32,183 bases of DNA. Source: a virus. The position numbers were made by a program, and so were the translations under genes. Location: the IMG/VR virus record IMGVR_UViG_3300030390_000803, positions 1 to 32,183 of that record; one strand, given 5' to 3'. Shown here one piece after another: positions 13,859 through 32,183 of the stretch (positions within the stretch are counted from its first letter, which is position 1; every line of letters starts with the position of its first letter). The notes beneath the pieces are model-generated. The model made no database searches. It was not told the DNA's origin and was given only the letters and a program-made list of their open reading frames with translations.

Positions 13859-13961
13859 GATATAAAGGGGGTGGATATAAAAATTTAATTAAAAACTGGA
13901 TGCTCTTAAACACCCGTTTAATGTTAAGTGGCAAAACGCCGTTCGTCCACCCCCTCATATC
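13859..13961 (-). ncRNA. long-stem structured RNA element E1 (putative)
   Basis: A perfect 10-bp inverted repeat (AGGGGGTGGA / TCCACCCCCT, at 13866-13875 and 13946-13955) closes a 90-base unit. An extra outer stem GATAT/ATATC is separated from it by a small internal loop. Read on the minus strand, the interior has a GGC-GTTTT-GCC hairpin. It also has GGGTGTTTAAGAGCATCC (13898-13915), which folds as GGGTG/CATCC with an AAGAG-containing loop; TTAAAC-GGGT-GTTTAA is an alternative. It fills the gap between the rIIB-like and FEN genes. The core recurs in E2 at 26753-26819. It does not match a tRNA, because T-arm and D-arm consensus are absent. Function unknown. Confidence 0.6.
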
Positions 13962-29101: not shown

Positions 29102-29332
29102 TTATTTATCAATAAAATGTTCTTTAATACCACTTGAGTTTGTATTCATAGATGCTATACCTGGATGAAATCCAAACTGCATCTGAAATGTTAAATCCTC
29201 ATTTATAATCTTAGGCATATTAAACTCTTTAATTATTTTCTCTCGTATTATTTTCTTTCCTTGAAAAATAATCTCTTCATTTACCGCTATACGTGTTACA
29301 ATACGCGGTATCGTTCTATCATATCGTTTCAT
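29102..29332 (-). CDS. unidentified small protein (76 aa)
   Basis: 76 residues, basic N-terminus (MKRYDRTIPRIVTRIAVNEE) with beta-like and helical stretches, then a more neutral C-terminus. No recognised motif. The start is about 28 bases beyond structured element E4, the same distance range seen for E1 and E2 and their downstream genes. The stop is 11 bases before the start of the 40-residue gene. Confidence 0.65.
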   Translation of the reverse strand: MKRYDRTIPRIVTRIAVNEEIIFQGKKIIREKIIKEFNMPKIINEDLTFQMQFGFHPGIASMNTNSSGIKEHFIDK

Positions 29333-29357
29333 AAAGTTTTTTTAAATTAAATACAAG

Positions 29358-29468
29358 ACAATGGGAAACAACTAGGCTCTCTTGCTCCGTTGTTACTAGG
29401 ACACCGCGCGCAGTATCTTTTGTTGATTGTTTATAATGCAACTTTATGTTGCAAATGTCTCCCATTAT
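29358..29468 (-). ncRNA. long-stem cloverleaf-like RNA element E4 (putative)
   Basis: The closing stem is AATGGGA/TCCCATT (7 bp), plus one outer pair past a mismatch. On the minus strand three internal hairpins follow. The first is TGCAAC-ATAAA-GTTGCA (perfect 6 bp). The second is GATAC-TGCGCGCG-GTGTC (5 bp with one wobble). The third is AACAAC...GTTGTT, enclosing GG-AGCAAGAGAG-CC. The third loop ends AAGAGAGC, like the loop ends of E1-E3. The fold resembles a cloverleaf but has no tRNA T-arm or acceptor consensus. It occupies a 172-base gap between the 197- and 76-residue genes. Confidence 0.6.
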
Positions 29469-29504
29469 CTTATATTAATACACAGATTGCGTTATCTGTT
29501 TATT

Positions 29505-30098
29505 TTACAACATCTCCATAGATGCTGTAGCTGTCATTGCTTCCTCTATCTTTACTTCAACTCTATCATGTTGAACATAAGTATGAGTAGGCTCACCTAA
29601 GACAAGCTTAGTATTTCTATAGATGTTCTTACCATCTTTAGTCAATACTTCACTGGTTGCAGGATTAACTTTATATCCTGTATCATTGTCTCTTTGCCAG
29701 TCAGTAGCTTCCGTTGTCTCTGTAATTTGGACACTAACTTTCTGACCATTGTACTCAGGATTAAGAATATTTAAGTATGTTACTTCTCTAACTTTACCTG
29801 TTTTACTAGTTATAGCAACAAACTCTGAATTCTCAATGTCAAGTCCTGGAACGTTAAGCAATGTTTCAAGATCTGTAATTGTAGATTTTGTCCAGTTATA
29901 AGTTTTGCTACCTCTCTTGAATCTTGGGTCACTAGCATTCATCATAGCTAATACATCATCTGTAGTGTCACCACCACGGTTAATATTCTGTACAAACTCA
30001 GCTCTAAAGCCACCATTTGCAGTCTTTTCTACATGTGTTAATAATACTTCGTCTACTTTTAAAGTGTCTAGACTACCACTATTTAATTGATTTGCCAT
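29505..30098 (-). CDS. unidentified early protein (197 aa)
   Basis: 197 residues, acidic and Thr/Asn-rich, beta-rich by pattern (KVREVTYLNILNPEYNGQKV, NIYRNTKLVLG); no Cys, no membrane segment. I do not recognise it. It has less A/T-biased codons than most genes here, which may mean high expression. AACCAATTAAA lies 4 bases before the ATG (30103-30113). It is flanked by structured elements E4 downstream and E5/E3 upstream. Possible roles include an abundant early DNA- or protein-binding factor, but nothing confirms this. Confidence 0.75.
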   Translation of the reverse strand: MANQLNSGSLDTLKVDEVLLTHVEKTANGGFRAEFVQNINRGGDTTDDVLAMMNASDPRFKRGSKTYNWTKSTITDLETLLNVPGLDIENSEFVAITSKTGKVREVTYLNILNPEYNGQKVSVQITETTEATDWQRDNDTGYKVNPATSEVLTKDGKNIYRNTKLVLGEPTHTYVQHDRVEVKIEEAMTATASMEML

Positions 30099-30244: not shown

Positions 30245-30329
30245 TAACTAAGGATAGGCAAACAAGTTAACTATTATGAAAACATCTACGCTCTCCAGCT
30301 TAGATATAAATAAAACCTATCCTTAGTTA
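30245..30329 (-). ncRNA. long-stem structured RNA element E3 (putative)
   Basis: Perfect 14-bp arms TAACTAAGGATAGG (30245-30258) and CCTATCCTTAGTTA (30316-30329) close an 85-base unit. On the minus strand the interior includes ATCTAAGC-TGGAGA-GCGTAGAT, an 8-pair hairpin with one mismatch whose loop region ends GAGAGC. TGTTTG precedes the 3' arm, as in E2. The element starts immediately after the stop of the 92-residue membrane protein gene. A 20-base part of its core recurs inside the zinc-ribbon gene at 31311-31330. Confidence 0.65.
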
Positions 30330-30941: not shown

Positions 30942-30958
30942 AGTATTATTTTAAAGTA

Positions 30959-31040
30959 AAAAGTGACTACTTCTAGCCTCTGACTTCACAATAGGTAAAG
31001 GTGTACCTAAATCCATCAGTATGTGCATGTAGTCACTTTT
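30959..31040 (-). other. inverted-repeat element E6 (putative structured RNA)
   Basis: Perfect 12-bp arms AAAAGTGACTAC (30959-30970) and GTAGTCACTTTT (31029-31040) close an 82-base unit. An inner TAGGT/ACCTA hairpin is possible on the minus strand. It lies just upstream of the 88-residue gene. A 79-codon GTG-initiated frame (30951-31190) crosses E6, E7 and part of E8 and is probably not a gene. Confidence 0.5.
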
Positions 31041-31042
31041 AA

Positions 31043-31110
31043 TAGTAGACACTCGTTGGTTATCTTTAAGCCTGATGTCCATTGAGTTTAGAGGCAAACT
31101 GTGTCTACTA
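31043..31110 (-). other. inverted-repeat element E7 (putative structured RNA)
   Basis: Perfect 10-bp arms TAGTAGACAC (31043-31052) and GTGTCTACTA (31101-31110) close a 68-base unit, 2 bases from E6. Inside, on the minus strand, GTTT-GCCTCT-AAAC or GCCT...AGGC could pair. With E6 and E8 it fills a 323-base gene-free stretch (30942-31264). Confidence 0.5.
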
Positions 31111-31145
31111 AGTGTTATATTATCATATCTCTTTGATTTGATAAT

Positions 31146-31200
31146 GTGTAAAATGTGTGCTAAATGATGTGTATGCGTGCTGGTTTGCACACACTTACAC
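31146..31200 (-). other. inverted-repeat element E8 (putative structured RNA)
   Basis: GTGTAAAATGTGTGC (31146-31160) pairs with GCACACACTTACAC (31187-31200) along almost its whole length with one bulge or mismatch, enclosing 26 bases. GTGC-TGGTTT-GCAC is an alternative smaller hairpin. A further ACACACT/AGTGTGT pair (31189-31195 with 31223-31229) overlaps it, so two folds may compete. Confidence 0.4.
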
Positions 31201-31264
31201 CGTAAGATAGCAAGAGTTTTTGAGTGTGTTTGTGATTGTTTTGATAGTTGCGCAAAAGAAGAGA

Positions 31265-31486
31265 TTAACTCTCCTCCTGCTCTTCCTTCTTTAAAGCACT
31301 AACATGAGCTGCTCTCCAGTTTAGATATAAAACACTAACATGAGCTAATGCTAAATCCTCTTCCTTCTGTCTCTTAACTTCCTCTTCAATATCTGTATCT
31401 AAATAATCATGGCAAAGAGAACATAAACCATAAGACAGTTTCTTAAGTGGGTATAAGTCCCCACACATCTGACATTTACACTCCAT
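31265..31486 (-). CDS. small zinc-ribbon protein with an in-frame insert
   Basis: 73 residues. MECKCQMCGDLYPLKKLSYG with LCSLCHDYL gives two CxxC knuckles (C5/C8 and C22/C25), a compact zinc ribbon. The C-terminal half is acidic and helical (DIEEEVKRQKEEDLALAHV). Near the end, AHVSVLYLNWRAAHVSALKK shows a peptide duplication (AHVS twice) produced by a 14-base direct repeat around a 22-base insert in the DNA. Likely an early regulatory adaptor; specific function unknown. It follows the 89-residue gene by 5 bases. Confidence 0.75.
   Translation of the reverse strand: MECKCQMCGDLYPLKKLSYGLCSLCHDYLDTDIEEEVKRQKEEDLALAHVSVLYLNWRAAHVSALKKEEQEES
31297..31346 (-). repeat. 14-base direct repeat flanking a copy of the E3 core
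   Basis: CACTAACATGAGCT occurs at 31297-31310 and 31333-31346. Between them lie 22 bases that match 30290-30311 (the core of E3) at 20 of 22 positions; the shared part reads GCTCTCCAGYTTAGATATAA. The insert plus one repeat is 36 bases, so the zinc-ribbon reading frame is kept. Confidence 0.8.
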
Positions 31487-31894: not shown

Positions 31895-31920
31895 TTTGAT
31901 AGAAAGTTTTTATATCTTTG
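31895..31920 (+). promoter_or_regulatory. putative Bacteroidota-type promoter for the + strand module
   Basis: TATCTTTG at 31913-31920 is a perfect TAnnTTTG box, and the sequence continues CAC as in strong flavobacterial promoters. The best -33 box, TTTG at 31895-31898, is only 14 bases away, shorter than usual, so the -33 part is uncertain. It would start a transcript near 31927 that runs into a 220-base structured leader and the gene at 32145. Confidence 0.5.
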
Positions 31921-31923
31921 CAC

Positions 31924-32094
31924 TGCAACATTATTCATCCCTCGGTAACCAAAAAAGGGAAAAGACATCGGATTGTAGTCTCAAATAGAGATAGAGTTTT
32001 CTCCGGTAGTTGCAAAAGAGTTAAAGTATAAGCTCTAGTTAGGATACAATGCACACAGGTAGGTGCGGTGAATTAACACCAGTTTTAGTATCCT
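31924..32094 (+). promoter_or_regulatory. structured 5' leader with two branched domains
   Basis: Domain A is closed by TGCAAC (31924-31929) and GTTGCA (32009-32014) and contains small hairpins such as AGAC...GTCT. Domain B is closed by a 7-bp stem AGGATAC/GTATCCT (32041-32047, 32088-32094) and contains two 4-bp hairpins, GCAC-ACAGGTAG-GTGC and GGTG-AATTAA-CACC. A TCTC-TTAAC-GAGA hairpin follows near 32100. No tRNA, tmRNA or RNase P signature is present. The gene-free stretch from 31762 to 32144 consists of this leader, the promoter-like sites and the hairpin before the first early gene. Confidence 0.5.
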
Positions 32095-32144
32095 TTGGTC
32101 TCTTAACGAGAAGCACTGCTAGAGTGAAATCACAACTTGAAAAA

Positions 32145-32183
32145 ATGCCTCAAGGGGGACAACTATATCTAATTTACAATGCC
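32145..32183 (+). CDS. start of a + strand gene, 3' end outside the window
   Basis: An ATG at 32145 follows an A-rich stretch (TTGAAAAA) and opens a frame MPQGGQLYLIYNA that runs to the window edge. The position after the leader and divergent to the early genes suggests it is the first gene of the + strand module. Too little is visible for any assignment. Confidence 0.45.
   Translation, partial: MPQGGQLYLIYNA

Follow-up and report, generated by a model that had tools for sequence, protein, structure and literature searches.

The gap between two genes of no known family in a phage genome raises the question of whether the structured segment within it is a functional RNA and, if so, of what kind. 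The window, meaning the whole stretch of DNA analysed, is a virus record of 32,183 nt (32 kb; IMG/VR IMGVR_UViG_3300030390_000803), and the segment, E4, sits in a gap of 172 nt (29333-29504), not of 107-111 bases as the initial annotation had it. Neither the 197-aa nor the 76-aa flanking gene has a PHROG match. The best named relatives of the family A DNA polymerase encoded in the window include the crAss-like phages cr108_1, cr111_1 and crAss001 (25-31% identity), and we class the window as crAss-like because its DNA polymerase is closest to these phages; capsid and portal genes lie outside the window. RIIA/RIIB-like proteins are encoded within it. Searches of named phage records returned no DNA relative of the E4 region and, for three element types, no match beyond chance.

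The proposed closing stem of E4 is real and far beyond chance. The minus-strand fold of 29340-29480 has a free energy of -43.1 kcal/mol (z -6.85, 0 of 200 shuffles), compared with z -3.07 for the plus strand, and its 21-bp closing helix (P1) is unequalled in 100 shuffles of the gap. Folded on the minus strand, the interval first proposed (29358-29468) reaches z -3.75; the element is there, with wider bounds and a longer stem (Table 1). Covariance model R2 matches the window at 29360-29466 (E 2.5e-13, the window being a training member). P1 of the window contains three G-U pairs on the minus strand and P1 of the family 25 among 219 pairs, which point to the minus strand, that of the flanking genes, as the probable sense strand. 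Elements of the family are ca. 83-127 nt long and share one order of parts: P1 (8-21 bp), an unpaired AACAAUC strand, a variable P2 and a small P3.

Table 1. Positions of E4, its parts, flanking genes and other closing-helix elements (window coordinates unless a locus is named).
Feature	Position	Strand	Evidence or remarks
Upstream gene	29505..30098	-	197 aa, no known family; orthologues in 66 loci
Downstream gene	29102..29332	-	76 aa, no known family
Whole structured RNA element, P1 to P1	29350..29476	-	Fold z -6.85; 21-bp helix exceeds 100/100 shuffles; R2 match
P1 5' arm AAUAUAAGAUAAUGGGAGACA	29456..29476	-	Inner 10 bp: 9/10 pairs covary across 16 sequences
Extra hairpin UGCAAC/GUUGCA, lineage-specific	29437..29453	-	Window and L011 only
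Unpaired strand AACAAUC, conserved	29425..29431	-	AAUC invariant in 16/16 of alignment A2
P2 hairpin GAUAC-UGCGCGCG-GUGUC, self-complementary apex GCGCGC	29400..29417	-	Pair changes in clades A, B, C
P3 core CGGAGCAAGAGAGCC (C-R-GA-GNWA-GA-G)	29375..29389	-	Sequence conservation
P1 3' arm UGUUUCCCAUUGUCUUGUAUU	29350..29370	-	Ends 17 nt before AUG of 76-aa gene
Small upstream hairpin ACAGAU..AUCUGU, same gap	29477..29504	-	Clade A only: L001-L006, L013
E1	30245-30329	-	15-bp closing helix kept in L004, L012, L013, L016; variable interior ends in conserved UGUUUUCAUAAUAACUUGUUU
Two tandem closing-helix elements	30959-31040, 31043-31110	-	Gap 30942-31264; AAAAGUGACUAC/GUAGUCACUUUU and UAGUAGACAC/GUGUCUACUA
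Closing helix GAGGGGGUGGA/UCCACCCCCUU with internal hairpins	13865-13956	-	Between RIIB-like and 250-aa genes; exceeds 100/100 shuffles; without E4 core
Replaced interior GAAAA...GUAAU...CAGUG in retained stem, 197-aa/76-aa gap	L012:5276-5355, L015:5274-5351, L016:5264-5342		

The initial annotation had described a cloverleaf-like element with three internal hairpins that is not a tRNA. A structured, non-tRNA element stands, and ARAGORN finds no tRNA or tmRNA gene in the window or in eight loci holding family members. The cloverleaf is not the conserved fold, because one of its hairpins is an insertion confined to a single lineage and another a wrong-strand alternative. Its second hairpin (GATAC/GTGTC) is P2. 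The first (TGCAAC/GTTGCA) is shared by the window with no relative other than L011. The third (AACAAC/GTTGTT) is a plus-strand fold that overlaps a P1 arm and is not kept in relatives; the structure conserved at its site is a different small hairpin, P3. Nor do the proposed links to other elements hold, since AAGAGAGC, the third-loop end said to connect E4 with elements E1-E3, occurs once in the whole window and TGCAAC/GTTGCA, said to tie it to a leader domain on what is the other strand, occurs 13 times. The sole sequence common to E4 and E1-E3 is the 6-mer GAGAGC (seven occurrences in the window), and the homologues of E1 in L004, L012 and L013 do not have it; E1-E3 share no common core with E4 and were rejected as its relatives.

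Relatives of E4 in IMG/VR fall into three clades and one further locus. Clade A includes six orthologous gaps beside the 197-aa gene (L001-L006), all of which keep P1, with G-U exchanges, P2 as GAUAC/GUGUC and the string ACAACGGAGCAAGAGAGCC, and lack the extra hairpin; L011, L013 and L017 are further members. Between the window and L011 the element has 102/107 ungapped identities and the upstream gene 406/541 aligned identities with many gaps and indels, so the element is better conserved than its neighbour. Clade B, found by an IMG/VR scan with a 16-base piece of the core, has the same core with a different P1 sequence and a longer P2. Its members lie on contigs that carry a cluster of genes for head and neck proteins, apart from L092, which lies beside DNA-metabolism genes. 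Covariance model R1, built on clades A and B only, gave weak matches (E 0.03-0.9) in four DNA-polymerase relatives (L021, L027, L028 and L065), in which inspection revealed a closing helix of new sequence around AACAAUC...C-A-GAGNWAGAG. This clade C, to which a descriptor scan added L026 (reversed-sequence control: three low-scoring matches, all with helix score <=18.5), occupies another position in the same early operon as clade A. The small hairpin upstream of E4 in clade A is absent from clades B and C.

A last, looser scan with two short core pieces, demanding no helix, reached at least 69 new loci, many of them chance matches; among the matches listed, L223 and L248 (= L021) passed, L223 being the one further true member. 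Its P1 of 17 bp is unrelated in sequence, and it scores E 1.6e-8 against R2, from whose training it was absent. L223 encodes a helicase, an HNH protein and tRNA-Arg, and its element lies in a 959-nt stretch (L223:8809-9766, minus strand) without an ORF of >=50 aa. Several further possible closing helices occur in this stretch, so that it might represent a small-RNA array; the helix count alone, 5 against 3.5 in shuffles, is not above chance. Whole-record searches found at most one convincing copy in each record examined, and many crAss-like relatives carry none. Several candidates were discarded: low-scoring R1/R2 matches in L074, L038, L107 and G025 (coding-like or without the core), extra strict-pattern matches in L136, L137 and L138 (no closing helix), two exact 18-mer matches in bacterial genomes (fold absent in both) and a possible second window copy at 13865-13956 (long closing helix, core missing). 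Neighbouring genes differ among clades A, B, C and L223. The family, with its shape and short sequence core, is thus represented in no fewer than three groups of uncultured phages that are otherwise unlike: crAss-like phages, where it takes two operon positions, phages with a head/neck gene cluster, and the phage of L223.

Comparative evidence for the fold is strongest in P1. The point on which the initial annotation had staked its proposal, conservation of the arms in relatives, held for P1 and P2. RNAalifold, given 17 sequences, predicted P1 unaided, with double changes at 8 of 14 P1 pairs. In a MAFFT alignment of 16 sequences that includes clade C, trimmed at P1, a procedure that somewhat favours P1, double changes occur at 9 of 10 pairs, 97.7% of P1 cells are paired (70.7% in shuffles, <=51.1% in every slid control) and 42 cells are double changes (12.7 in shuffles). 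P2 pairs also change, between U-G, C-G and U-A within clade A, from U-A to C-G within clade B and among several pair types in clade C. A coding origin was rejected: the window has one open sense frame, and lengths of 105, 106, 107 and 127 nt among relatives, differing by other than multiples of three, leave no conserved reading frame. That E4 could instead work purely as DNA, be it a mobile insertion or a set of inverted repeats to which a protein binds, might be read from the palindromes in P2 and from near-identical clade B elements in different gene neighbourhoods (L087 and L092). The P1 arms, however, change together across 60-85 intervening bases, G-U pairs are tolerated on one strand only (25/219) and the strand is always that of the genes, which makes this explanation scarcely credible. 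E4 is a genuine, previously uncatalogued, conserved structured RNA family of phages, and we are highly confident that it acts as RNA.

The interior of E4 contains its most constant sequences. AACAAUC is invariant across clades A and C and in L223. The closing C-G of P3 is invariant in 16/16 sequences and its loop is GCAA, GCUA or GAUA, so that the tip reads as a putative GNNA loop on two G-A pairs; the pairs of P3 are constant in clades A and B, so the evidence for this hairpin is its conserved sequence. Rfam 15, which includes GOLLD, ROOL, OLE, phage pRNA, ribozymes and riboswitches, gave no match at gathering thresholds, and scans at permissive thresholds with the elements of L106, L028 and the window yielded chance matches only, far below gathering scores. 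Literature searches on intergenic structured RNAs of crAss-like and other phages and on dimerising phage RNAs turned up no match to E4. In outline, a three-helix junction with a long closing helix and conserved unpaired strands recalls small ribozymes, and E4 might represent a self-cleaving ribozyme of an undescribed class; even at permissive thresholds no Rfam ribozyme matches, nothing in the arrangement of the invariant residues is reminiscent of a known active site and we consider this very unlikely.

The apex of P2 is a self-complementary 6-mer in every clade, L223 included. It reads GCGCGC in clade A, UGUACA, UGCGCA or UGCGUA (via G-U) in clade B, UCUAGA or ACUAGU in clade C and UACGUA in L223. 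The chance of a palindrome per loop is 0.03-0.16 for uniform letters and 0.13-0.34 for shuffled loop letters. This argument is post hoc, with L223 as the only out-of-sample case: met after the rule had been noticed, its apex has all four CUAG letters changed and the palindrome kept. The pattern is suggestive of a dimer formed through kissing P2 loops.

The placement of E4 among genes bears on whether it acts on its own message. Its strand is always that of the neighbouring genes. In clade B just 1-9 nt lie between the preceding stop codon and the element, too few for the gap to hold a separate promoter. E4 is most likely co-transcribed with its neighbours. The distance from the end of P1 to the following AUG is 14-19 nt throughout clades A and B, whichever gene comes next, and 31-35 nt in three clade C members. 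The spacing in clades A and B favours a cis role. E4 could accordingly be an intercistronic leader whose core, on binding a small ligand or a protein of phage or host, controls translation of the next gene or stability of its message, an explanation that we rank second and regard as quite possible. Against it, the genes that follow the element lack homology from clade to clade, the nearest downstream ORF of >=40 codons is 130-151 nt away in L021 and L026, no ORF of >=35 codons starts within 250 nt of the element in L223 and neither an anti-RBS arm nor a terminator alternative is seen. These distances and unrelated genes favour an autonomous RNA. The constant association with one gene or pathway expected of a riboswitch or gene-specific leader is not seen: the gene downstream differs among clades A, B and C and L092, and L223 has none nearby.

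E4 is not the only closing-helix element in these genomes. Of 84 co-directional gaps in crAss-like relatives, 12 have a closing helix better than that of any of 100 shuffles (0.8 expected), several of the 12 being homologous to each other. The E4-orthologous gaps of L012, L015 and L016 retain a similar P1 (GAUAUAAAAURAGGGAG/CUCCCUUGUUUURUAUU) around a different interior. These elements are separate classes, and the core described here is found only in E4. The two tandem elements of the window are spanned by a 79-codon, GTG-started ORF (30951-31190) that is probably no gene. At 31292-31346, the 73-aa gene holds a 21-nt partial copy of E1, GCTCTCCAGYTTAGATATAAA (30290 and 31311), flanked by two copies of the 19-nt direct repeat TAAARCACTAACATGAGCT, which looks like an insertion with duplication. 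On the plus strand (31915-32183), a leader lies behind the Bacteroidota-type promoter-like TATCTTTG; stretches of it such as GCACTGCTAGAGTGAAATC and CATCGGATTGTAGTCT...GAGATAGAGTTTTCTCCGG recur in L004, L026, L027, L050 and L061, indicating another conserved RNA. L066:3476-3574 and L048:3979-4101 share another class, with a closing helix around GUAAAGUGGAG...CCACAUYUAAAACAUAA...GUAGUAAA.

The abundance of near-perfect closing helices in other gaps would also fit a processing or stability signal, in which P1 is an RNase III-like cleavage site separating messages and the interior a spacer or decay block. P1 measures 19-21 bp in most clade A members, a size that RNase III likes. Phage T7 has RNase III sites between early genes, with long intercistronic double-stranded stems in its early operons, and E4 resembles these in its long intercistronic stem. 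It differs in its short clade B P1 (8-9 bp; most clade C members have 10-13 bp) and in an interior core that is its best conserved part, unexpected of a spacer. We rank this explanation third and think it unlikely.

The reading that we rank first, on balance and tentatively, is that E4 is a conserved, co-transcribed small phage RNA acting as a module, with binding of a partner and possibly loop-loop dimerisation. It would be transcribed in the direction of the neighbouring genes within a polycistronic RNA. P1, the variable P2, the small P3 and the core of AACAAUC and C-R-GAGNWAGAG are established by comparison; the core may offer a binding surface for a protein or RNA partner, or build a tertiary fold on the GNNA loop, and the P2 apex may pair two copies loop to loop. 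The module would be largely independent of the following gene, either as a processed small RNA or still within the transcript. We favour this reading because of P1 covariation, the pointers to clade C given by a model of clades A and B only, the match of L223 from outside the training set, the lack of promoter room in the clade B gaps, differing neighbour genes, a single copy per record, conservation exceeding that of neighbours, the ORF-poor setting in L223 and the P2 palindromes. The 14-19 nt AUG spacing counts against it, as it suits a cis role at least as well. A bolder version, which we put forward as doubtful, makes E4 the first recognised example of a class of small phage RNAs that fold separately, each with its own perfect closing helix, and are strung between genes like tRNAs. 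It would act in trans, with two copies joined loop to loop and a conserved core that binds the partner, and would have moved between unrelated phages. An RNA core common to otherwise unrelated phages and steadier than adjacent genes points to an undescribed RNA-based step of infection. The family is defined by a covariance model and 20+ distinct sequences, one copy per record, and can be searched for in transcriptomes and tested in vitro. With further closing-helix elements of other interiors in the same crAss-like operon, the repertoire of small RNAs in phages may be larger still.

Comparison with known systems places E4 near several of them. It shares a closing stem and internal hairpins with tRNAs and tRNA-like structures; tRNAs have a four-helix core whereas E4 has three helices and is without D-loop, T-loop, anticodon arm and CCA. 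GOLLD, ROOL and OLE are structured bacterial or phage noncoding RNAs of unclear function that oligomerise via kissing loops and A-minor contacts (PMC12286853). They are several times larger than E4 and have no sequence or Rfam match to it, and a dimer of E4 is only inferred. The phi29 pRNA (Rfam Phage_pRNA), an RNA of ca. 120 nt, has a closing helix and loop-loop contacts between copies. E4 is similar in size and closing helix, and possibly in loop-loop contact; it differs in having no Rfam match, in its phages and in lying among early or head/neck genes, with no evident link to packaging. The retroviral dimer initiation hairpin carries a 6-nt self-complementary loop, and its likeness to P2 is an analogy of principle, with no claim of kinship.
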